DNA from: Cloeon dipterum
Taxonomy: Eukaryota > Arthropoda > Insecta > Ephemeroptera > Baetidae
Assembly: GCF_949628265.1 (NCBI RefSeq)
Contig: NC_088786.1
Coordinates: 28,913,681-28,977,680 of the forward strand
Length of the DNA: 64,000 bases
Direction: 5' to 3'
The notes under the pieces were generated by a model. The model did no database searches. It worked only from the letters and a program-made list of their open reading frames with translations, and was not told the DNA's origin. Shown piece by piece: positions 1,776-38,930 of this stretch (position 1 is its first letter; each line of letters opens with the position of its first letter). The position numbers and the translations under genes were made by a program.

Positions 1776-4700
1776 TAATTCTATTTCTTGGCTTGAGTGT
1801 ACTATTTTTAGACTGTTATGTAAATTTTCTGAATTATATTTGAAACCTGTTTGAAAGAGATCACTGGTTTTCTCCATTTTTTACGAAGGAAGAACGCACA
1901 AACGGCAGTCTTAAACGAATGGACTTTGTATCGTCGCATCGTCAAGAAATTGTCGACTTTCCTTATTTTCACACACTACTTCTCGAGGTGGCTCTTGTCT
2001 GAACGCGTGCCAAAAATAATCAACAGCCGGCATCGAGCTTGGCTGGAAAGAAATTTAATGGAATGGAAAGGGCTGTGTGCTGAGCAAAAATAATGTGGCG
2101 CAATTGATTGAAAAAGCCATTAATTACAGGCCACCAAATGGCGATAATATTTCGGTGCGTGACATTCATGGAGCACACTAAATCATTTTGCATGCTCTGC
2201 GCACAGGCTGCGATGAGAGCTTAAAGCGGGGAGAAGCAGAAATGAGAGAATTTAACCTTCTAGTTGGTTGCTCCTGCAGATCTTGTTCGTTTAACAAGAT
2301 TCATTGCGTATTTGAAACAATTTGTAGAATTTATTCAACAAATTAAATAAGTTGTTATTGGATTTTGTTTTAATTATCTGATAGTTTCAAAGTTTGCCAA
2401 ATTTAAACACAGCCTCTCACAAGGCTGCATTAGTTCTACAAATGTTTGTGGGACACACAGGTTATGAAAATTTTTATTTGCCTTTATTCCTAAATCGATT
2501 CCTATTAGCAGGCTTATGTATAAATCATTCCGTCTTCTCGAATCTGCAGCTCGGCAGTTTTTACAGTCGGGCGTAAACCGATTAAATTTCAATATCAGCC
2601 ACTTGCAGGCCGGTGCCAATAAAACGCGCATCAGCAGCCCTCCGCGACGCCACCCTCCCCGTATGAATTTTTCAGCAGCGGCAGACGCAGAAGGGAAATA
2701 AAGTTGCGCCGGCTCTTTAGATTTTATATATTATGATGATGGATACGGCGAAATAAAACATTTTTATCTAAACTTTATGATTCGCTTTTTCGCCGCTGTG
2801 TTTTGATGTTTTTATGTATAAATATAAAATCGTGTGCGGTGTTCGCGCAGGAAATGTGCGTCCGACCGCTTGCGGAGGGGTTTATGCATTAAACATGGCC
2901 GGTGCGAGGGAGTATTCGTATTTTGCGCGCAGCAGCCACCCTCGTCAAATGCCGTGTCCATTTTAGATGAGAGTGACCGCGCCTGTCGTATAATGCGCCC
3001 TTATTACATACCTATGTGTATGTACATATGGCTGACGAGAGTGAGAGAGAGCATGTACTTGCACACTCTATATAGGTCTGGAAAGGTTTTCATCTGCACA
3101 GACTCAATGCCAAGCCCCAAATTTTGAGATAAAAGAAAAACGAAATCTGGGGGCTGCATTGCAATTCGAGCTCAAAATAAACTGAGCCTGGATACTTGAT
3201 CCTGAGAGGTGAGAAATTAATTCAATTTCAAGCCTAATAATAAAGTTTAGGCTCTAAATATCAATTAAAGGCAAGTAAAATATTAATTTCCAGCCAATAG
3301 AAAGATGCAAAATTTATAGTCTGTAGAAATGGCACTACGAGCCTGTAAATTTAGAGTCAATGAATCGAATTTTGCGTGAAAGGTGTACGATTTAGATTTA
3401 TAAGATGTTATGCCTTAATTACTCAAACTGCTCGATGTTTGAAACTCGAGTACTCGCTACTCTTTTTTCCAGCCACCTATGCTCTTAATGGTCAAGTGTT
3501 ATGTTGATATTTCAATGAGTTTTTTTATCTTATTTTCCACAACGCTAAAATACTCCTGTAGGGAAAATTGCGGAGGGATCAGAAGTTATACTGTGTCAAG
3601 CTGCAAAGCGGCTGTGATCTTGCAAATCTCGTTTGAATCTTTCTCATTCTTTTCTCGCATTCTCCGCAACTTTCCACAAACTCCGGGGACTTAGAGAGGA
3701 TGATAAATATTTGAAACCAATAAAAAGCGGACTCTGGGCGAGGAGAGATCAAAGAGGCTGAATTCTCGCAGCAATCATCAAATAATGCGCCGGAGAGAGG
3801 GTGGCCGGCCCAGAATGAAAATCACCCGTGCGTATTTTTTCATCCGTAGCATCTTCTCGCTGTCTCTCCTTCACTGGTACACACGCAACCCTCAACACAC
3901 ACAAATGAAACAACCCTGCTGGAGGGAGGAAGAGAGGGGAATCGGGGAGAGTTGATCGTAGACGGTCTTTTTTCGTTTTTTCACTCACACTGGTATATTA
4001 AATGAGATCTCAATAAGAATAATTTTGTAGCTCCTCAATGTCTAAAACTGAATTTATTTTGGGATTGGTGCTTTTGCATGTTTAATTGATATTACTTATC
4101 AATCTGTTGAACAAATGCAAAATGTTTTCTTGGATAAACATTGTAAATATTTAATTGTTATTTTTCACTGAGCGGAGAATTCAATATTTTAGTTTTTCTC
4201 GGAGAACCCTAACATGGTTCTTTATTCATTATGAATTGAAATTATCTGGTATTTCAATTCCTCAAATATTTTAGATCAATAAAAGCAAATAAATTAATCA
4301 AGTAATAAACTAACTATCCATGTTTGAAGTCAAATAATTAAAAAGACAAATAGACCGGGTGGTTTAAGAGAAAGTCTCTTGCTGCAATTAGCCCTTGATA
4401 TCTAGGATGAATTATTTAAGGCTAAAATACATATAATATTGACGTAATGAGCCAACGTCGGCCTTGTACAAGCTACAGTAAATAACCCTGACAGAGCGAG
4501 AAGATTTTTGGATCAGACTGGCAGTGCAATGCAAGCGGTTGGGCAAGACCAGACACACAATCCAGGCCTGTCATTCAGAGGTCTCCTTCCAAATAGACAC
4601 GAGTTCTTCCTCTTTCGGCTGATATGTGTGCTCTGCTGGCAGCACAGAGAGAACGTCTGCCATAGTAAAGAAATTTTCTCATTTCAAACGGAATAACATT

Positions 4701-7700
4701 CCCCACATCAAAATCTTCCATTAGCCAAAAGAAGGGTCTGTCGTTCTTCTTTCTGCGTGGATTTTTTCGCTTCTGCTCTCAGCGTGTTTTGTTTTAATTT
4801 GCTGCGCTTCGCTTTTTCTCTTTCCGAGCCGCACGCACAGACCTAATGAAATTCCTGATCCTTTCCACCCATTGATGAGCTGGGACGCGTCCAACTTTCG
4901 GAAACAGGTGCTGAAGGCAGTGGCTGATGTTATTCTATGCTTTTAATTCTAAACCGGAATGAATGAACACATTATTGCATTTAATCTGTGCTGGATGAAA
5001 AGATCTTAGAGAATATGAGAGTATAGTAAAACTGATTTAATAATTTTAACTATATACGTATAAGCAAAGTGAACGAAACGAACACTTTGAAATTTTTAGG
5101 TAGTAGTAAAAAATTTTATATTTGAGATGTTTTGAGGTACAGAGGATGGTTGAAACAATTAACATCTTGAACGAAACGTTGTAGAGTATAATAAGGATAT
5201 GGACGTGGAGAAGACGGAAAATTTTATTTGAGGAAAGCTGGAATTCAATTGTGCATGAGATCACGATTCAGATCAGACGAATAAATCACAGAGAACGCGA
5301 TTGTTGGTTTTTTGACCCCGAAAATTGGTTAACAACTCTATTTTGCGGAAAGACGGCAGCACGAAGTTGTAATAACTGCATTGACGGTGGCTGCTTTATG
5401 GCCACTTAACATCATGAGAAATCAATTTCGCGGCTTTGGCGTCCGAGCTGCGGCCAAGATAAATGCACGTCAAGCGGCACAGGCGGCAGCGAAAAATGGG
5501 CAGCGTGTGAGCCACATCCCAAGTGCAGCGCGACCAGATTGTTTAATTCGGTATTCCGTGCCGCGAACTCGGCATTATTGTAAATTTAGCTGATAAATCA
5601 CATCAGATAAACACACTCAGTCGTGTCGGCCGTTTGGATGTTACTGCGCTGCGAAACCAGAGATAATAAATGGCACAATCACACCAACGGCTTGTTCAGC
5701 CAATATAAAAAGACGAAAATGCGTATACCGGCTCATCTCTCAGAATTTCGTCCCTCTTTGCATTTTTCTCACTTCTGATAATCATGGCAGGGCAGTGAAA
5801 AAATGGGGTGTTTTCCCAATTTTAATTTCAAATAATAAGGTTAATATAATATTATACATGTGGCGCCTGGAGCGAAGTAGTGAATGTATACACAAATCAG
5901 GTTCATATTTACATATTTCTAGAAATTCTTTGAATAAAGTTTTCTATTTATTTTTATCGATCAAAACTTTCTGGCAATTTTCTTATATTATTATTTAAAA
6001 GACTTTTTCTATTTTGTCAAACAATTTAAATGTTTTACAATTGACAGAATTTAAACTTAATTATTAATTAATTAAAACTCACAAAATTTGGAGTCATTAT
6101 TCAGGAGCTTTTCGCCCCCTTTTGTCGGCCAAAAGTTCAAAAGGGATTTAAACTTTTCAAGAAAGTAGATAAATTAAACATCGATGAATTTTGCCTCCTT
6201 ATTAAAACTCATCATTATTAACGAGAAATTGGCGTTGAAATTCGATTATTAATTATTTTTCAAGTTATATGTATATCTACAATGCTAGTTTTTCCTTCTG
6301 ACCTCAAAAACTCGCTATCGTTGTCAAATTATTGTTTTGAGAAACAAGCGGGGAAATAAACAATGTTATGTTTTACAGCCCCATGGGTTTTTAAAAAATC
6401 TTAAATTATTTTATATGACTATGAAACAAAAGATTTAATTTTGTCAGAATCCAAATCTATGTTGGCTTGCCCCTCGTTCGGTTTCTGCGAAAGCAGACGA
6501 AACAGAAAACAAGAGTGAGAGTGACTCCCCCACGCACACATTACCGTGATGAATATGCAGGCTGGTATGACAACAACACTATACAGCGAGAGACTTAAAA
6601 ATGACCAGACGCTCTCTCGCACGCATGCAATCGCAACTGTCGCTCGGACAGAAAAGGAAATTGTGCCATTTTGACACCCTCGCGCGCGTGCTTCTCTTTC
6701 TCTCGCTGCAGCCCCTTGATGGAAGAGCAGAGATTTTGTGCGTGCGAGCTGCATAATGGCAAGCGTCAGACAGAATACGAGTTTGCTCTCGTGCGGCGCC
6801 GGCAGCAGCACAATCCGAATGCAACGGAAATAATGGCATTTATTTATCATTCTGCTTCAGCCTCTTTCACGAATGACGTAAGTTCGGTTTTTTAAGGGAT
6901 GACAGTGAGAAGATATATTATACTCACGAAGCTCGTTTGGAGGAATTGAATAAGATTGTGAAACATTAGACAATTAATCAGTTTAGATTAAATTTCGTCC
7001 GGAAAAATTAGTCGGAGGAAATTTTAAGTATTCTACGCTTTAGTTAGGGGAATTATTTATTCAACAGTTTTAGTGATTAACGATTCAAAGGTTTGAAAAA
7101 TGACCAAAATTCCAAAATTGATTTGAAATGAAATACTTTTTGTTAAGTTTTGGCGAATTACGGTTTGTAGATTGTACTTGATTTTTATTGAGACTTAGCA
7201 ATTGGTAGCTAATTAAAAAAAAATAGAAAAATCAATTTTCCTTAGAGGGTTCTGGGCTCTTTAATAAGTTCAAATTGTAGAGCAAAAAACTGCACAATCC
7301 AAGAACTGGTATGATTTTTTTTAAATTATACTCATAAGCACTGATTAATCCTTGAAGATTAAAAATCAGATTTTTATATTATATTGTCGATTTAAATAAT
7401 TTTTACTCAAATCGCCCACTTTCAATTAGAAGACTTGTATTATCTTCTCAATCATGTTAGGAATGCAATATCTACTTTTTATGACTAAAATTTAAGTTCA
7501 TTTCCGAAAATTAAACAACAATTTTGTGTTGCTCAAATATTAAACTGAATAAGTGATCACCACATTAAAGCAAAGGACACTTTTCAGTAATAAATAGTAC
7601 GTCTTTAAAACTTCTGGCAAAATAAATGCTACGCAATGCAGAGATTTCTTACTCGCAGAGGCGGCATAATTTCTTATTCATCGCACAACAGCCGCTTGCG

Positions 7701-28587: not shown

Positions 28588-28595
28588 CTTTTTGC
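28588..28595. repeat. 8-bp target site duplication, left copy
   Basis: CTTTTTGC immediately precedes the left terminal inverted repeat and is repeated exactly at 37029-37036 after the right one. An 8-bp duplication is diagnostic of the P superfamily (and also of hAT elements). Confidence 0.95.
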
Positions 28596-28786
28596 CAAGC
28601 TATCATACAGAAGGCAAATCTTTTCGCGCGCAGAGGTCTCGTCGGCGGCGCCTAGCGGCCATCTTCGCAAGTTCATTTGGAGTCCTCTATAGGTCGATTT
28701 TTGTTTTGAGTCGATTTTATTGGCTGTTTTGATTTAAAATTGTACTTTGGCGGCCACAAAGTCGTATCCTCATGACTTTAGGAGTT
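28596..28786 (+). repeat. Left terminal inverted repeat of the P-like element
   Basis: Base x pairs with base 65624-x of the right end over 191 positions with about six mismatches. It contains GCGGCCATCTT at 28655-28665, the reverse of a YY1/Pho-like AAGATGGC site. The repeat is much longer than the 31-bp repeats of the Drosophila P element. Confidence 0.95.
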
Positions 28787-30564
28787 TAATGAAGCTATAA
28801 ACAGATGAAATACTTCGAGCGGGAACGTAAACAGTGGCAAAGACAGACTTCAAGTGTATCACAACTCACAACAACCAGGCCTCAACCCTTGAAGAGTTCT
28901 CTGCGTGGCACGTTGAGGTAAACAAAAGCTCTATTATTTAATTAATACTGCTCTGAAAAAAGATATTTCATTATTGCAGCTACCCAAAATCAAGCATATT
29001 CGGACAGTATGTAAATAATCCAGTGCGTAGAGTTAAAGAGGGCCAGAATGATCCAACCGCGCGTGACAGCTATAGTTGTGTGAAAATACGGAAAATACCG
29101 AAAATACTGTTGTTAGTTTGATGAATAAACCCCGAGGGTGAGTAATTTTCGTAATTTGTTATTGGCACAATCATAAATATGCTTTGATGAAATGAACCAA
29201 ATACTTATTTATATTTTTCCTTATTGTTCCCAGGTGTTGATTGCCAAAATACAACGTGAGTGAGATTGCTCCTAAAACTCCAGGTCTTTATTAGCGCAAT
29301 TTTGCGATATTATCTAGGTTATTTTATGTTAAAAACGCAAAATTGTTACGAGGGTTGACCATCGAATAAGATTTTACGGATTTTATAAACATTTATCGAT
29401 GCTATTCTTGCTATATTTGATGAATTCTTATAGTTGTTATTCATTAATTATTTAAAAGTTAAATATTTTTATTTTGGTTACCAGATAAATACAAGTTTTT
29501 GAAATGTTTGTATTAGAAATAGTTTTATATCTTAAAAAAAGCTCCCAAAATAATAAAAAAGAGGTGCTCTCCTTTGTGCTGGGTTTGGCTGCTCTTGAAA
29601 GCACATTTGAAACTAAAAACCTAAAGAGGCAAAATCTGTGTATAAAATGGCTTTTACGGCTTTTGCTAATGATATGGTCTTGCATGAAAATTTGGAAAAT
29701 TTGCATGATTTAGTTCCCCTGCATGTGCTATAGGTATTTAACTTTTTGTTTGTTCATAAAAAATTATTTACAAAAAAAATAATCAATGTTGCATGTTAGA
29801 TTCTAAAATCCGTTAAAATAATCGCATGTGTAGAAAAATCTCAAAATAAAATAAGCAAGACTAGAAAACATTTACATGGAAAAGCAATGACAATCATCTG
29901 ATATCAAGAGGGATAATAATATTATGCTGTGTGACTGTAAGATTAAGTTACATTTTAAGTGACTCCCAAAGTTCAAAATTTATATTAACCCTTTTGGGAC
30001 CTTAATTTCTTTGGCAATAGTGACCACAATTAAATTTTGAATTTTGTATGTTGGGATGTATCAGCAATATTGCTAATGTTGACTATAGACAATAGAATAT
30101 TATCATACAAGTGTTTTTGAAAATTCGCTTATCGTTTGGTTTTTGATTATTTCTCGAGTGGTCTGCGTTGAATTGAGTAGCATCCCTTAGTATAGTTCGT
30201 GTATATTTTTCAATTGAGATTATCATACAAGTTAGGTTAAAAACTATATCTGAAATGAAAATAAGGAAAATAAAAAATAAATTGATGTTGTTTTAATTAT
30301 GCTGGTTAGTTAACTTATTTAGAATAAATGATGAAAATAAATCAAAATTCAGCGATTCCCCTAGTGATTAATCCTGTATCAACAACTGCCACGAGTAAGT
30401 AAGTGCAGAAAAACTTTATTTGTGTCACTAAAATTGTACTGATTTAGAAATATGAAATATGTGTTTGTACCTTTAACAAATTGTAGCAAATAGGCAATGT
30501 ACTGAAAATAAAAATTAATTTTTAAGACACTAATGATATTTCATTAAGGAATCCCTATAAAGCT
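28787..30564. other. Transposon leader region before the transposase start
   Basis: Apart from the two-exon ORF at 28805-29121 this 1.8-kb AT-rich stretch shows no coding signal. The donor at 29138 and an acceptor-like TTCCCAG near 29234 suggest spliced leader exons of the transposase transcript. Confidence 0.4.
28805..29121 (+). CDS. Two-exon small ORF at the left end of the transposon (84 residues)
   Basis: Exon 28805-28917 starts at ATG (MKYFERERKQWQRQTSSVSQ) and ends at AG|GTAAAC. Exon 28980-29121 follows a TTGCAG acceptor in phase and reads YPKSSIFGQYVNN before a TGA stop. An AATAAA overlaps the region just after the stop (29124-29129), and a strong donor AGG|GTGAGT lies at 29138. I do not recognise the protein; it is basic, glutamine- and serine-rich at the start, and has no obvious signal or membrane segment. 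It begins 19 bp inside the left TIR. It could be a second element gene, a captured host exon pair, or an upstream ORF in the leader of the transposase mRNA. Splicing is inferred. Confidence 0.45.
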
Positions 30565-33500
30565 ATGCAGTGTGCAGTGAATGGTTGCCGTACTAGAAAC
30601 AGGACTACGTACAGCAGGACACAGTTTGAATTGGTAAATTGAAACAGATAATACATAGTTGACAGCATGGTTAAATTAATAATTAAATTCATCCAATTTT
30701 GAATTCACATTTTTTAAAACAAAAATAATTCCACCACACGCTAGATAGATAGTACAAATAAATAAGCATAATAAGCTAATAAAATGAATTATTGAGAATA
30801 TAAACTATCAATAAAAATTTGAAGGTGAAAATATAAATTATTGAGATATAAATGTTTTAAGTTCATTTTTGCAAAGGATTGAATTAAACTGAATTTTCTC
30901 AAGAGGCGTAAAAAAGCAGTGAACAATGAGAAGCTTCCAAAATTTGGAAAATTTGTCATCTTTTGTACACTTTTAGCATTAAATGAACTGTTAACTACAG
31001 ATTGGAATTAAAATAACACATCATATAGGTTCATCCAGTGGTTGGCGTTCGCCTGTTTCGAGTACCTAGCAAATTGAGAGAACCATGGAGCAAAAGCTTG
31101 AAAATCGATGTCACGACCACAAATTGGAATACCACAAGGGTCTGTTCTCGGCATTTTAGTCCAGCACAGCTATACACTGCAAAATTAGAGCGGCTCTTGA
31201 AGACGGGTGAAGCTCTCAACAATGGCAAGATTCTTCTGCCCGCAGCCGTGCCAGACCAATGCTTGCCGGGACAAGCCAGCAACGGTTCTCAATCCAACGT
31301 CCTTTTCAACAAGGAAGTGTATAATGAGTATAAAAAAGCCTCAGAGGAGAACAAGTTGAAAAAGCTTAAAAGGTATTTGAAAAGGAGACACAAATCAAAA
31401 TTTCGAAAACTTCACTGGCTATAAGTACAAAAAAATATTTTTAGGCGTTAATTGAAACTAAATTTCTTTCTAAATAATTAAATTTTCACGCCTTTCTCTT
31501 TCAATTGCCTAAACATTGGGAATTTGCACTTATATAGTAATTGATTTGAAGTGGCTAATAAACGCTGTGTTTATTTACCATTGTTGTACATTTCAATAGT
31601 ATGACTATTTAGCAGGAAAGGGAAGAGAACTGATTTGCCTGGTAGTGATGACAATGACCATGAGCATGGCTTATTCGTTGAGGCAGGTCTAGACGAAAGT
31701 AGCTTAAGTAGCTCAGCAAACAACCTGTAAATAATTTAAAAAATTAATCTCAGCACGTATAACAGTGAAGAATTTGTAGCGACTCACTTGATACCCAAGA
31801 AAATATCTCACTAGAGACATCAATTGATGGTCGTCAGTCAGAATCAACAGATGAGCATCTCAACAGCTCGGCGTCGTCGTCGTCGTCTATCTTTAATCTG
31901 ATCACCTCTGTTGGGTTCCAAACTTCAGCGAGCTATGAAAAGTCAATATTAGTTAAAATGATAATTGAAAGATATTTTAATGGGCGGTAATTAATGTTTA
32001 ACAGGCTAATTGAACGCCTGTATCAGCTGGAAATCCCTGATCACGCTGCCAAAGGCCCCAACTGGCATGAAAAATATCCTTGCGAGGTAGTGAGCAGGTA
32101 ATTTCAAAACTGAATTAAAAGTTAAAAAATCAAAAATGAAATTAACAAAGATTGCATATTCAATTTTAAACTAAATTCAAATCCTGAAAAGGAACTCCAT
32201 TAAAAGGAAAAGAACAATAAATTAAAAAATGGAAATATGCCCACGAATGCGTTTACCAATAATATAAGATGAATAACAGAGAGTCAAAATATTTTAGGAG
32301 GTTCTTGAGTGATGTCAGTGAGGCCTTGAATAAAGCTGACAAGGAGAAGGAGGCGTTGAAAAAAGAGGTCGTCAACTTAACCAAAAAAATAAAAAATACA
32401 GAAGCAAATGCAGTGACTGCAAACAACAAATTGAAGACTGAGCAGCAAAATCGCCATAAAATTATGGAGATGTTGAATAAACAATTTTCAACGCCACAAA
32501 TTGACAGAATACTGTACAACAGGAACACGAAGTGGACGGACAAAAGCCTGACGGAGCACCTGTCACTTTACACCGCCAGTCCAAGGGCTTACAAAATTGC
32601 AAGGACCCTGAAGATCCCGCTTGCGTGCGAGTCCACTCTGCAGAAGTTACTTTCCAAGCTGGATATTAAGCCAGGAATTCTCTTAGACATCATTCGGCTC
32701 ATGGAGTGTGCAGGGAAAGCGATGGAAGAGAAGGAGCGAATTTGCTGCCTATGCTTCGATGAAGTGGCTCTTGACTACAAGGTCAATTACCACAGGGGCA
32801 GGGACCAAATGGTCGGACCCTACCGCAACCTACAAGTCGTGCAGGCAAGCGGCTTGTTCGCAAAGTGGACACAGACTGTTTTTTTTAAAGGAGGATGCCC
32901 CATGACGAAAAAGCTACTGTTTGAAATCATCACCACGCTCGCAGATGCAGGTTTCACAGTCTTGACTCTCGCTTGCGACCTTGGCCGAGAAAACATGAGT
33001 CTCCTCAAAACTTTGAGCGTGGACGAGGACAAGCCCTTCTTTCAAAGCCCAAGTGGAGAGGGGAAAATTTTTGTCGTCCCAGACCCACCACACTGCACCA
33101 AACTTATTCGAAACCATCTGCTGGAGGGCGGGCTTGCACTAGAAAAGACACGCAAAGAGTGTGTGGCATCAAAATTTGCTTTACAAGAGCTAGTCGACGA
33201 GACAGCTCACCTCGAGATGGCTGGACATCCATTGAAGCAGCAACATTTGAATGTGCAAGGGTGTGAGAAACAAAGGTGCCAGCTGGCGTTTGAGACCCTA
33301 TCTCATCCAGTGGCTGATGCATTAGAAGCTATGGCTGAGAGAAGACCAGGAGACAGGGCTATATTCAATGCAAGTTTCATTAATAACGTTTGAATTTTAT
33401 AAAAAATTAGCTTTGTTATAGGCAACAGCAGTAGTTTGTCGCACAGGAGCCACATATCAGCATCTCTATGGCGTGACTAAAGATCTCACCAGAAATTCAA

Positions 33501-35123
33501 ACGCGCCTACAGAACAAATTCCGCCAGAGATGCTGCCATTTGGAAGAGAGCTGGAGGAACAAACCAAGTTGCTGGAACAGATCAAACAGACAATCAAAAA
33601 CTGGAGAAAAATTACTCCCACCGGCAGGCCCAAAAACGATATGATGGAATTCCAGCTTGCAATTATTATTGGCTGTACAGCTCTTCCGCAAATATATTCT
33701 TATCTCAAAGCGCAGTACCCTGACGAAGAAGTTGAGCTACTCACTTCCAGAATTAGCCAAGATGTTTTGGAACGTTTCTTCGGGCTTTTCAGGACACACT
33801 TTGGCCCGAACACACGCCCAGATGCAGTTGAGGCTGAAAGCAGAATTAAGAAGTTGCTCCTGTGCAACAACTTTAGCATGGGCTCAAAAAAATCTAATGT
33901 TGCAATGCAGGAGGCACTGGAAAAAGAAGGCATTAATTTCCTGTCTTTAATCGTGAGTTTAAATTTCAAAAATTATATTTATCAAATCAATCATGGCGTA
34001 CAGTTTTTAACATAAAAAATCTCAACAGTAGTCTCAAATTTACACTGCTCTTATTTAAATCAATTTTAGCTTTAATTGAATCCTAAATAAGAGACGAGTT
34101 CATGTATTGGTAATAAGGATTTTCCAGGCTTTTTCATGGCATCAATCCTCTTTAGGAGTCAAAGAATTAGACCTATTCAATTTAACTGCCGTAAATTAAA
34201 TATTTTTATCTGGAAACTTTCTCGAGTAGGCCATGAAAAATACCATCATTTAACCTTAATTTTAAACTTCCTCACAGAGCCTGAGAGAAGTAAGCGCTTT
34301 GAGTAAGGATGGACAAGCAGGGAAAGAAAACATTGAATCAATTGAAAACCAAGCAAGCCCTGAGGAAGAGCAAGGTGAAGACGACTGGAGTGAAGTGGTA
34401 GAGGAAGAAAATGAGGAAGACGAGGAAGATGATGAAGAGCTAGTCATTACGTTTGAGGGGGACGAAGAAGAAGATACAGTGAAACAGGTCCCAATTTGTT
34501 GGATGCCTCCAGACTCGGAAGCTGACCCGGCTTACCATGCTGGATTGCGTTTTGTAGCCGAACAAATTGCGGGAAAGCTAGGCTCCACTTTCCCAGAGCT
34601 TAGAGGGACAATCGCAGAACCTGGTGAAAGGCCTTCTTGGTTGAAGACGAGCCAGCTGGTTCCTGGAGGTGCTCCAGCGTCCTGCTTTCTGAAACAAAGC
34701 GTATTGGTAATGGATGAATTATTCAGGGAAATCAACAAAGGCAACATCTGCAAGAAGCCAAACTACATCAAGAGGTGAGCAATAAATTTAAATTAATTTA
34801 AATATGATAGAAAAACGAATTAAAAAGACACGTAGATGCCTTACACCAGCAGCATTACGACAAGAAGATCCCCAACGCAGTCTCAAGACTATTTTTTGCC
34901 AAGAGGAGAAATATCAGATGCAAGACGCTTAATATTGAGCTATGGAGCCGCAGGTCAAGAAAGTCAAGAGAGGTGCAGAGACCTTCATATGCAATACCTC
35001 AGTCCAGAGCAGCCAAGAGAAGTAAACTGCATAGGACGTCATACAGGTATAAAAAAGCTTTTTTCCAATTAGTTTTAAAAATTTATTAATTTTGACTTGT
35101 ATTGTATTTCCCTCAGACGCTGA
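30565..35123 (+). CDS. THAP-domain P-element-type transposase (THAP9-like), apparently intact
   Basis: Ten exons: 30565-30633, 31029-31372, 31616-31726, 31780-31941, 32005-32097, 32298-33387, 33422-33952, 34278-34774, 34828-35046 and 35117-35123. They join in phase to about 1040 residues. Residues 1-90 form a THAP zinc finger: MQCAVNGC gives C3 and C8, VCSRHF gives C62 and H65, and the invariant P36 and W43 are present. A Ser-rich linker and a coiled coil (about 265-320) follow. The core has LCFDEVALDYK (D414), LACDLGREN (D487), PDPPHCTKLIRN, and DVLERFFGLFR (E740), which fit the RNase-H-like P/THAP9 fold. Near the C-terminus come a long acidic stretch and a basic RLFFAKRRNIRCKTLNIEL segment. 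It should bind the element ends and cut and paste them. The intron at 31942-32004 and the last junction are least certain; read-through would end at 35089. Confidence 0.88.
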
Positions 35124-35179
35124 GTGCTAACAATAAGTCATCAGTTTGGAACTTTTTTGTAAATAATGTTACTTTTAAG

Positions 35180-35185
35180 AATAAA
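35180..35185 (+). terminator. Candidate polyadenylation signal of the transposase
   Basis: AATAAA 57 bp after the inferred transposase stop, followed by an AT-rich stretch. Confidence 0.5.
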
Positions 35186-35239
35186 ATTTTGAAAATTTCC
35201 ATCGTTTTACAAGACTAGATTAAGCACCCAAAAAGTATT

Positions 35240-35425
35240 TTAAAACTGCTAATAACCTCTTAAGCGTCTCCTTAAGCTGCACTTTAGGCAGGAAGTCCTG
35301 ATCTCGCCTGATTTCACTGCTCCATTCATTTCTTTCTTGAACATGAGCACCAGTTTCAGCTTCTCCCTCTTTTCGACACACAGATATTGAAGTCTGTCCC
35401 CTTCAGCTGAACGCACATAATAAAA
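35240..35425 (-). other. Unidentified protein-like segment antisense in the transposon
   Basis: On the minus strand one frame reads through REKLKLVLMFKKE and a neighbouring frame continues with SSEIRRDQDFLPKVQLKETL. The two are joined by a single frame break, so the segment looks like a decayed coding exon. It lies downstream of the FEN1 copy in the same orientation. I could not match it to the C-terminal part of FEN1. It may be a divergent last exon, a second captured gene, or chance. Confidence 0.3.
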
Positions 35426-35494
35426 TAGTTTTTAATACGCACAGTTTAATAAGTTTAATAAATGAAAACCTTAATTATTTTCCCTGGATCTCAT

Positions 35495-36637
35495 CTCGGG
35501 TTCCACGAAAACTTTCCTCGAGTAGTTTTTTTTTCTTTTCTCGGACACTTTGTACGGCTTGTCCAGGTTGTTGACAATCTGTTCAATGCTAGCTGCCGTT
35601 GCTCCTGATCAGTTCAATGGCCCTTTTCGATCCAACGCCTTTAATCGAGTCGCATTCGAGGAGAATGCACAGGGCGATGAACTAGAATTTAATTTGATTA
35701 AGTTACTGCAAGTGGTTTTTTTTTTCAAAATTCACCTGTTCCTTGATAAGCTCTAGTCCAGATCAAACTTTGTCCAGGTGGAACTCATGATTGGGCATCT
35801 TCCTGGCCTCACTCAAGGTCATGTGCCCGAGCGAAATGTTTGCAAAAGTTCAAAGCGTCAATGTCTTCAGTGGCAAAAACCTTCCCTCATTTTACCAATG
35901 CTTTCGCTTCGCAAGGGGCCTGCTTGTGCATGAACTCAGGGTTTACAATTCGCAAGCGCAAGAGTGACAGCAGGTTTGCATCAACAAAGAGTGTCCCCAT
36001 GAGTGACAGCATTTTCTTGCACTCCTCTAAGGGTGGCTTCTGGTCGCCTTGACTAATCGCTGTTGAACTTGTCCACCTGCTCGGCGTCATCTGCGACCAT
36101 TATACTGTCAGTTTCTGTGCTTGGTTGTCAGTCTTTAAGCAAGTTACCCGCTTCTTCAGCCTTTCCAAGGGTTCTCTGTGCCTCCTGCCTTCGCTCTGGT
36201 CTTTTTCACAGCTCTCCTGACTTGAGCTCCGGATGCTTCCCACCAAAAACGAAGATACACAAGCTTGATGCCATTCGCAACCAGCTAGATTGTGCGGTAG
36301 AAAGTTCCCACGACGTGGCTAAATTTTCAATAGTGATTAGTGAATATATTAATGGACAATTAATTATGTTTCGTATGTACCTTGTGGTCTCTCCGTCAGC
36401 CAAAGTGAGTTGAGCGCCTTCGGAGCGAACGTACGGCAATCAGGAATTGATATAAATTCGATAAATTCATGATGCGTTGATGGCAACCTTGCAGCCTGTG
36501 GCATCCAGTCAATATTGTGTGGTCAAAATAAATTATTAGCAGAACGAACCGAAATATATGTAGTGTTTGATTTCGCTCTCGTCATTGACAGCTCCAGGAG
36601 CCACTCCGAGATCAGTTTTGAGGCCAGGAGTAACCAT
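35495..36637 (-). pseudogene. FEN1: Captured, broken FEN1 (flap endonuclease 1) copy inside the transposon
   Basis: The minus strand shows collinear FEN1 pieces: a start reading MVTPGLKTDLGVAPGAVNDE (36637 down), then CKVAINAS, YQFLIAV, RSEGAQLTLADGETT, GTFYRTI, FGGKHPELKSGEL, ECKKMLSLMGTLFVDA, ATEDIDAL, SEARKMP, ALCILLE, SIKGVGSK and VFVEPEM near 35495. FEN1 removes 5' flaps during Okazaki-fragment maturation and base-excision repair. This copy is dead: stops follow INAS, YRTI and ALVK, and several single-base frame breaks and deletions are visible, including loss around the usual GCDYCES helix. Intron-like sequence remains between GETT and GTFYRTI (ending in TTTAG) and before CKVAINAS. The copy therefore came from genomic DNA, not from mRNA. 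The 5' end points away from the right TIR, antisense to the transposase. Confidence 0.88.
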
Positions 36638-36837
36638 TATGGCTGTTGACGTCGAAAATGCTTACGCTAATTAAGTTAAAATACATTAATTCGCCTTCAG
36701 AGAGCCGTGAAAGAACCGTAACTTGAAGAAAAAGATCCAAAATGCGATTGTTTACAAACTGTATGGAGGCGTTGACCAGCTGCAGATTGGTGGTTACGCC
36801 TAAATCACTCGCGACCACAGGTTATTGTGGCTCTTTT

Positions 36838-37028
36838 AACTTCTAAAGTCGTGAGGATACGACTTTGTAACCGCCAAAGTAAAATTTTAAATCAAAACAG
36901 CCAATAAAATCGACTCAAAACCAAAATCGACCTATAGAGGACTCCAAATGAACTTGCGAAGATGGCCGCTAGGCGCCGCCGACGAGACCTCTGCGCGCGA
37001 AAAGATTTGCCTTCTGTATGATAGCTTG
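36838..37028 (-). repeat. Right terminal inverted repeat of the P-like element
   Basis: Inverted partner of 28596-28786 (about 97% identical, no gaps). It contains AAGATGGCCGC at 36959-36969, close to the YY1/Pho consensus. It ends ...GATAGCTTG directly at the target duplication. Confidence 0.95.
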
Positions 37029-37036
37029 CTTTTTGC
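37029..37036. repeat. 8-bp target site duplication, right copy
   Basis: CTTTTTGC, identical to 28588-28595. Removing the element and one copy restores a continuous locus. Confidence 0.95.
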
Positions 37037-37985
37037 AAGCAATGAACTACTGCCCATGCACATAAATAAGCTGCGTGTAGATGTTAATGCTTTGGTATTT
37101 TCGAAATATATCCGATTGACCCATTTAGGTAATGTATGTATGTAATTTAAATTACGTATTATAGGCTATAGGCTATAGCCATCTATTTTGCTTTTTGAAA
37201 ATTTTATTATTTTCTGTAAAATGCTTAGACATACTGTACATGCATAGATATGTATGTAGTGTGTAGGGTAGGTCCTGCTTTTTGTTGGGAGCCAACTATT
37301 GTCTGCGGTTTGAATTATCGTAATTTTGCATTATCGTTTATCAGCAGAAAGATGATTTCGTCCTGGTCGCGGTAAATTTGCGCATCGCTCAACAAATACC
37401 CAAATTTTCATTGTCGAATGGATTGTTGCCCTTTTCATGCAACAAAGAAATTCGCGTTTGGTTGTTGAAAGTTGCGCAATTTTGCCGCTACCAGGACGAT
37501 TTTATAATAAGAATTCAGTTTTCGCCCGTAGGCCACTCGGTGATGACTGCTGAGTCCGCGTAGGGCCCACGCGAAAGATTGAAAGACTCCTTAGTTGGGA
37601 CCTGCTCAACTAAATTAACAAAAAGGTTTGCCACATTTTACACGAGTTTAATTCGGTCGCGATTGAGTTTCCATAATTTTAAAATCCAGACAAATTTATG
37701 TTGCCTAAGAATTTTCCTTTCTGCCAAAATAAACAAAGACGTAAATTCCAGACAAAAATAATTTCGATAGCTTCACACGCGCTGTGTTCGCTGTTGCATT
37801 TTTTAAATTGGAATAGGAGTTCATGCTCCTTTACATTATTTGCCCTTATCTGAACAATGCGTTAGACACTTCCTGTGCAACAGAGGAATACAGTATGGCA
37901 AAATATACTATTTTTGGAAGTTTAAAAAGTAAAATAAATAAGGTTGATAAATGTTTAACTTTAATTTTCAGAGAGAAGCTTCAAA
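37037..37985. other. 5' flank of the 37986 gene
   Basis: No coding gene was supported. TTTTCAG directly before AGAGAAGC (about 37970) looks like a 3' splice site, so the gene probably has a leader exon in this stretch. A short iterated TATAGGC palindrome lies near 37162-37180. Confidence 0.45.
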
Positions 37986-38930
37986 ATGTCTCAATTCTGC
38001 ACAAAAACTCATAGTTTGGCAACTAGACAAGCCACGCAATTCCGATGGCTTACGACTCAGGAGGACGATTTCCTACCAAATAGTCACCTTGATGACGTAG
38101 ATTCAAGCGGCGCTGCAGTCTCACATGTACCTGCTCTACAACATCAAACCTTTACCCAAATCGACTTTCCTTCATTTACACAACTGGTGGCCGATGATGA
38201 CAAAGTTTTCAAAATGCCTGACCCTTACAAACCCCCACCTGAGCCAAAAAGTCCTCGGGAACTGTCGGAGTTGGCCTGGGTTGCTCTGCAGCAGCTTCCG
38301 CACAAGGACGCCATTCTGCAGGATCTGATCTACACGTTTGAAAATTCCAAAGTAGATATGAAGAGGACCTTGCGGATTGGGCTGTTGGCGCCTCTCACTG
38401 CAGAGCCGTTTCTAAAGACCTTCCTCAGAAAGTGTCCCCTTTTGGAAGACGGAGAATTTTCCTCCTCAGAATCCAGCCAAAGTGATGGTGAAGAGGAGTC
38501 AGATGAGTCCTTGGAGGAGGAAGCTCATCCAGTCCTCCTACGAGGCAAATCAGGACTCACCCAACTGGACATCACACATGATTTGGATATTTCTAGCTCG
38601 GAGGAGGAGCTCATGGACTTTGACGAGGTCCCCAAACCAATCAGTCCTGACATGCCAGAGGGCTCCCTAACTGCCGAGAAGGTATCTTTGGACATGCCAA
38701 ATTTGGAGGGCAAAACGACAGTCGGCACTCAGACCGTGCTCACCATGGAAGACATTGAGAGGCTGTTGAAGAGTAACAAAAGTCACAGCAGGGACAGTCA
38801 GCTCAGTCAAAAACCAAGCGTGGTCAAAAGTAACCAACAGATTCAGCAGGCTAAGGCGAGGCAGAAGAAAAAGTCTACAGTGAGGATTGGACTGTCCAGG
38901 GTGAGGAAGCAAAGAGTCGGCAAGCTCTGA
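37986..38930 (+). CDS. Unrecognised acidic, serine-rich protein (314 residues)
   Basis: A single long open frame with coding-like composition. It has a folded-looking middle part (about residues 85-155, including SELAWVALQQLPHKDAILQD and LIYTFENSKV). Serine/acidic clusters follow (SSSESSQSDGEEESDES; SSSEEELMDFDE). A TVGTQTVLTMEDIERLL segment carries a TQT core like dynein light chain LC8 ligands, and the C-terminus is very basic and ends in STVRIGLSRVRKQRVGKL. There is no signal peptide or membrane helix. The terminal IGLSR-R-like end recalls the tails of some DNA-repair adaptor proteins (for example RAD51AP1), but this is too weak to name it. The ATG lies just after an acceptor-like TTTTCAG, so a leader exon is likely. 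It converges on N6AMT1. Confidence 0.8.
   Translation: MSQFCTKTHSLATRQATQFRWLTTQEDDFLPNSHLDDVDSSGAAVSHVPALQHQTFTQIDFPSFTQLVADDDKVFKMPDPYKPPPEPKSPRELSELAWVALQQLPHKDAILQDLIYTFENSKVDMKRTLRIGLLAPLTAEPFLKTFLRKCPLLEDGEFSSSESSQSDGEEESDESLEEEAHPVLLRGKSGLTQLDITHDLDISSSEEELMDFDEVPKPISPDMPEGSLTAEKVSLDMPNLEGKTTVGTQTVLTMEDIERLLKSNKSHSRDSQLSQKPSVVKSNQQIQQAKARQKKKSTVRIGLSRVRKQRVGKL

Follow-up and report, generated by a model that had tools for sequence, protein, structure and literature searches.

The stretch of DNA analysed here, referred to below as the window, comprises 64,000 nucleotides of the mayfly Cloeon dipterum (assembly GCF_949628265.1, contig NC_088786.1, positions 28,913,681 to 28,977,680 of the forward strand) and lies on contig C1 of the genome that we searched, which amounts to 190 Mb in 10 contigs, five of them of 33-43 Mb. 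No clear telomere array was seen at the contig starts, COX1 had a single match that stayed below the cut-off, and 5 odorant-receptor matches above theirs agree with an insect. Between positions 28596 and 37028 the window contains a complete P-superfamily transposon. A sequence-only reading of the window had already proposed this, and our analysis confirmed it: both ends are present, and the element encodes a protein with a THAP domain that matches the P transposase in PDB at E 2.2e-47. What that reading missed is a second gene inside the element, a captured piece of the host gene for flap endonuclease 1 (Fen1), the captured copy being dead. The features of the element are as follows.

28588 to 28595, no strand: left target-site duplication (CTTTTTGC), adjoining the left end
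28596 to 28792, plus strand: left terminal inverted repeat (TIR), 197 bp, from an inverted-repeat search and alignment of the arms
30109 to 30231, no strand: abundant genomic repeat in the 5' leader, spanned by both copies of the element, from a genome repeat search
30565 to 35124, plus strand: P transposase gene, ten predicted exons, 1,055 amino acids with no stop, from the reading frame and GT-AG sites
34036 to 34154, no strand: abundant repeat resembling a miniature inverted-repeat transposable element (MITE), in intron 7, spanned by both copies, from a genome repeat search
35370 to 36672, minus strand: captured host Fen1 pseudogene, convergent with the transposase gene, from a DNA homology search and alignment
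35483 to 35783, no strand: part of the Fen1 cargo, about 300 bp, lost from the second copy on contig C2, from alignment of the two copies
36832 to 37028, minus strand: right TIR, 197 bp, from an inverted-repeat search and alignment of the arms
37029 to 37036, no strand: right target-site duplication (CTTTTTGC), adjoining the right end

The element proper (28596-37028) is 8,433 bp long, the length given by the sequence-only reading and borne out by alignment of the ends. These ends are inverted arms of 197 nucleotides that are 96% complementary, with 8 mismatches in 197 positions; the 191-bp repeats with about six mismatches described earlier are real, but they form only the outer part of the arms. 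Since the remaining inverted repeats of the same 10.7-kb stretch have arms of at most 41 nucleotides (among the 25 longest of 27), a chance origin of the 197-nucleotide ends was excluded. No tandem arrays scoring 40 or more were detected within them. As in the Drosophila P element, the ends begin with CA, and the identical 8-mers noted earlier prove to be a perfect target-site duplication that abuts both of them. Just beyond the element, at 37358-37499, there is an inverted repeat with 38-nucleotide arms that are 84% complementary.

The splicing of the transposase gene was predicted from the reading frame and GT-AG borders, the donor at 33388 being weak. The predicted exons 1-5 lie at 30565-30633, 31029-31372, 31616-31726, 31780-31986 and 32005-32097, and exons 6-10 at 32298-33387, 33422-33952, 34278-34774, 34828-35046 and 35117-35124. 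The transposase had been described as open, and the ten exons do join without a stop, not just in the window (1,055 residues) but also in a second copy of the element on contig C2 (1,061 residues); the exonic indels between the two copies measure 3, 3 and 12 bases. Comparison with Pfam placed an N-terminal C2CH THAP domain (PF05485, E 4.2e-9) at residues 3-98 of the spliced window protein, encoded by exons 1-2, together with an RNase-H N domain above the cut-off (E 8.8e-12) and an RNase-H C domain just below it. For the GTP-binding domain PF21788, whose cut-off is 24.8 bits, the score was 25.1 in a single exon and 22.1 in the spliced protein; this region was aligned to the P transposase in the PDB comparison. 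There, the sole match at E 0.01 or better was to the P transposase (6p5a/6pe2, residues 298-791), in which D429, D502 and E755 of the window protein stand opposite D230, D303 and E531 of the P transposase chain, its catalytic acids.

The 191-bp repeat gave five matches in the genome, four full-length and one a 66-bp remnant, and a genome-wide scan for the terminal 25-mer, in which 3 mismatches were allowed, gave 4 sites, 2 per element (0 for the control pattern). The second element, at C2:32223916-32232046, is a full copy in the opposite orientation with its own 8-bp duplication (ATAAATAA), an insertion of the kind that the sequence-only reading had anticipated, and 8-bp duplications are thus found in 2 of the 2 copies of the family. 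Aligned over 8,078 bases, the two show 202 differences (2.5%), and the C2 copy is without 301 bp of the Fen1 cargo, at about 35483-35783 of the window. With 2 copies and this divergence, a recent burst was rejected. The 66-bp remnant (C1:40115517-40115582, positions 4518-4583 of our stretch L007) is 89% like the tip of the P element, and no second tip match was found within 9.5 kb around it.

Between the two transposase genes there are 39 nonsynonymous differences in 2,483 sites and 41 synonymous ones in 682, a dN/dS of 0.253 (Fisher p 3e-9). The lineages of both copies have therefore been selected for a working protein, which we take to mean that both would have kept moving. The element could instead be an old, immobile relic that looks intact by luck, as the divergence of the copies and their number would allow, but such a relic is hard to reconcile with perfect 8-bp duplications at both sites, with 1,055 and 1,061 open codons interrupted by so few and so small exonic indels, or with the dN/dS, and we consider it unlikely.

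A genome search with window 35484-36660 (minus strand) returned the two P elements, the host locus C1:4289218-4290395, matched at 79% over 1,177 bases, and C2:14215133-14215894, matched at 79% over part of the cargo. The homology to Fen1 spans 35370-36672 of the window, with a weak match (E 0.004) for the outermost 29 bp next to 35370. The parental locus (C1:4289206-4290513) sits in an open FEN1 gene, which splices to a 376-residue protein without stops, contains XPG_N and XPG_I domains (Pfam) and matches flap endonuclease 1 structures in PDB over residues 1-371 (best E 2.9e-159). Against this gene the cargo could be aligned from within the 5' leader, through exons 1-6 and the first six introns, into the beginning of exon 7. 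The two differ at 203 of the 1,251 bases compared (16%; 12-36% in the introns), and 11 indels in the exons shift the reading frame. The presence of the host introns rules out a retro-copied gene, and on this alignment the cargo is a dead gene that was taken up in the form of genomic DNA. When its fragments were compared with Pfam, NCBIfam and PDB, no Fen1 match was obtained, just two rhodopsin rows at E 0.5; the failure at the protein level is presumably owed to the frameshifts, and it was the DNA comparison that settled the identity of the cargo.

The Fen1 piece occupies the same internal place, within the inverted ends, in both insertions, and the cargo was therefore moved by the element; within it, the copies differ at 12 of 1,001 bases. 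The same observation bears on how Fen1 joined the element. It could have done so without repair copying, either by insertion of the element beside a duplicated Fen1 or by bypass of one end (transduction) to a new end downstream, and both the position of Fen1 near one end of the element and the existence of a duplicated Fen1 pseudogene elsewhere in the genome are in keeping with this. Insertion beside Fen1, however, does not account for one and the same piece inside both ends of two insertions with different duplications, and a simple end bypass would leave an internal third end, which the terminal 25-mer scan did not find. We doubt that either event took place. A different proposal is that the element benefits from the cargo, which might for instance give rise to an antisense transcript against the host Fen1. 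Both copies have retained it, and it lies opposite to the transposase gene, so that read-through would be antisense; yet we judged 84% identity low for silencing, and about 300 bp of Fen1 is gone from the C2 copy, making a useful cargo very improbable.

The C2 match at 14.2 Mb is a broken, intron-containing duplicate of Fen1 that is separate from the element (about 4134-5260 of our stretch L030, C2:14211000-14220500). It runs about 470 bp beyond the Fen1 stop, its 5' part is missing, and at E 0.01 the element matches this stretch solely in Fen1 and a shared repeat; it was discarded as a relic of the element on these grounds. Relative to the host gene, deletions of 2, 6 and 9 bp are common to the cargo and this pseudogene. 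The 6- and 9-bp deletions are likely to be derived, since they remove codons of conserved FEN1 motifs. Among 735 ungapped sites, 85 differ in the cargo alone, 32 in the pseudogene alone and 17 in the host alone, with 7 different in all three and 594 the same. The longer branch of the cargo (85 vs 32 unique substitutions, p 1e-6) may reflect faster change in a mobile copy, a period spent in another lineage, or a pseudogene that began to decay later.

Time in another lineage would be expected if the element had been transferred horizontally from a related insect after picking up the Fen1 of that insect. The long cargo branch, the distance of 16% to the host Fen1 next to the few differences between the two cargoes, and the very low copy number all favour this scenario. 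Against it stand the deletions common to the cargo and the resident pseudogene, and the two repeats within the element that are abundant in the Cloeon dipterum genome, and we hold such a transfer to be rather unlikely.

Taken together, it is highly probable that this is an autonomous-looking cut-and-paste P element carrying a dead Fen1 gene that was captured during break repair. We expect the transposase, with its THAP domain and RNase-H-type fold, to bind the long ends, cut the element out and reinsert it so that 8 bp of the target are duplicated. After a break in or at an ancestral element, repair copying would have switched template to a Fen1 locus, probably one already duplicated and decaying, copied in an intron-containing genomic stretch and gone back to the element; the enlarged element would then have kept transposing with the dead Fen1 as a passenger. 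We infer this route of gap repair and template switching, and counted in its favour, or in that of gene conversion, the uneven divergence of the two copies. Their noncoding divergence is 88/2,629 left of about 32.3 kb vs 27/1,886 right of about 33.4 kb (p 5e-5), falling from about 3.4% to 1.4% near 33.4 kb, while third codon positions differ at 14/274 in exons 1-5, 22/364 in exon 6, 3/177 in exon 7, 3/165 in exon 8 and 3/73 in exon 9. If one copy had been converted or gap-repaired from another, such a change-over near 33.4 kb would be expected, and we suspect a mosaic history.

Several points weigh against this interpretation. The mosaic is not clean: right of 32.3 kb, third positions (31/782, mostly in exon 6) differ more than noncoding ones (27/1,886, p 1e-4). 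The shared 6- and 9-bp deletions are flanked by short direct repeats, and slippage could have made them twice; the three-way comparison of cargo, pseudogene and host is, moreover, unrooted. Present-day activity and splicing are both read from the sequence. In the genome-wide scan with the terminal 25-mer we found no short derivatives and only two full copies, so the activity of the family may be low or over. Finally, the synonymous distance between the copies is 0.063 (about 6%), suggesting that they are not very young and do not stem from a fresh burst.

The last point also limits the recent activity that had been read from the element. The clean duplication at each insertion supports it, but the divergence of the copies, the distance of the cargo from the host gene and the two repeats common to both copies do not. 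For the leader repeat, 51 of the 53 matches listed lie beyond the two P copies (40 of 58 candidates scored), and for the intron 7 repeat 39 of the 41 listed do so, at 76-84% (40 of 337 candidates scored). The P family has probably lived in the genome of Cloeon dipterum, or a close one, for some time. The great length of the element is owed in part to its introns, its repeats and the Fen1 cargo.

The predicted catalytic exon of 374 residues had 13 matches in the genome, two of them these copies and the other 11 at 27-42% identity. Eight of the 11 were taken in 9.9-kb stretches (L017, L018 and L020 being left out), and three of them belong to complete elements, an 8-bp duplication being part of the criterion. 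L046 (C5:29887505-29895051) has 7,547 bp, ends of 1,082 bp at 99.5% and the duplication CTTTAATC; L051, when extended (C2:36209899-36219962), has 10,064 bp, ends of about 1,578 bp at 99.8% and the duplication GTGCTTAG; and L050, likewise extended (C4:31421954-31430966), has about 9,013 bp, ends of about 1,424 bp at 99.6% and the palindromic duplication ATAAATAT, which was trimmed by eye, the script having reported none. Long ends are thus common among the P elements of this genome. In L047, L048, L049, L052 and L053 no complete ends were found in the stretches examined; L047, at C2:36933264, matches the left 2.2 kb of L046 at 97%. L049 (C5:1151600-1161500) has a P-like transposase between long inverted stretches of a GC-rich CGCCAGCCTGGC-like repeat, and a short relative of L046 of about 3.56 kb with both ends present, probably non-autonomous, lies at C3:24887340-24890901.

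We also searched parts of the interiors of these three elements for cargo (L050:790-2000, L051:1180-3100 and L046:1306-3480). L050:1000-1464, which lies to the left of the transposase and inside the left end, encodes the ubiquitin-like domain of navigator (PF23092, E 9.2e-15), and the piece is 88% identical over 393 aligned bases to an open host exon (C5:26099750-26100250, PF23092 E 4e-20), seemingly reaching slightly into the following intron. A third navigator copy, at C1:38847937 (L061, C1:38847850-38848450), adjoins 87 bp that are 96.6% identical to the end of L050, and its frame is interrupted by a stop; these two features rule it out as the navigator host gene, and because of them we read it as probably the relic of a related element with the same captured piece. 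A recognisable piece of a host gene, Fen1 or neuron navigator, is therefore present in 2 of the 4 families with complete elements.

On one flank of the insertion in the window there are two minus-strand frames, at 25.5-26.0 kb (weakly WD40-like) and at 27.2-27.8 kb, and on the other a plus-strand frame (37965-38930) with an N6AMT1-like gene after it. P elements have a taste for promoter regions, and an insertion between what may be divergent gene starts would suit that preference.

The element resembles the Drosophila P element in its THAP and RNase-H transposase, in the aligned acids and in its 8-bp duplications, but differs from it in its size of 8.4 kb, its 197-bp ends, its 10 predicted exons and the captured Fen1; the Drosophila melanogaster element has 2.9 kb and 31-bp ends in the available text of its description (PMC7776569). 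From excerpts of a report on Anopheles gambiae (PMC1562414), the P subfamilies of that species have ends of 27-32 bp, elements of up to 7.5 kb, 8-bp duplications and MITE derivatives, and their THAP transposases have about 880-895 residues, encoded mostly in three exons. The duplications, THAP transposase and large size are alike, whereas the window family has long ends and yielded no derivatives in the terminal 25-mer scan. Galileo, as described in the accessible parts of two reports, has ends of 0.5-1.2 kb (30-50 bp in other members) with THAP sites in them, and transposases with stops or frameshifts (PMC3688188); in D. willistoni, the ends measure 1,575/1,608 bp in one copy and over 4 kb in one lacking the transposase, and the duplications of Galileo are mostly of 7 bp and some of 8 bp (PMC4168063). 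The window element shares with Galileo the long ends and, with some of its copies, an 8-bp duplication, but its ends are outside the 0.5-1.2 kb range and not internally repetitive, CTTTTTGC and ATAAATAA have 8 bp where Galileo mostly has 7 (consensus GTANTAC), and its transposase is open. The ends, called unusually long by the sequence-only reading, are so next to those of the Drosophila and Anopheles elements, but not next to Galileo's, nor within the Cloeon dipterum genome, with its three relatives.

As in Pack-TIRs, host gene sequence was captured between intact TIR ends, the parental locus is present, and insertions with different duplications attest to more than one move. The survey of Tan et al. 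2021 (PMC8277862), in the portion available, counts 370 cases across 100 reference genomes, with hAT and TcMariner together accounting for 323; it gives none in insect reference genomes and one family, Ssk-FB4, in fly populations, and describes animal Pack-TIRs as mostly single-copy. Unlike the cases surveyed, the window carrier keeps an open P transposase. Our searches of the open-access literature gave no paper on host-gene capture by the P superfamily in insects, on Fen1 in P elements, on mayfly P elements or on the chromosomes and transposable elements of Cloeon, and broader searches, judged mostly by titles, gave none whose title announces gene capture by a P element.

The two captures raise the possibility that the long-end P transposons of Cloeon dipterum repeatedly take up segments of host genes in the form of genomic DNA while staying mobile through an intact transposase. 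To such a natural 'Pack-P' system we give even chances. If true, this would be gene capture in an animal group without Pack-TIRs among the references of the 100-genome survey, as far as its available text goes. Ends of 197 bp with an open transposase, and relatives with 1.1-1.6-kb ends, would also allow the function of long ends to be tested directly; the long-end P-superfamily element studied in the literature is Galileo, whose transposases are broken in the accounts accessible to us. More generally, the element illustrates the capacity of cut-and-paste transposons to move animal host genes around.

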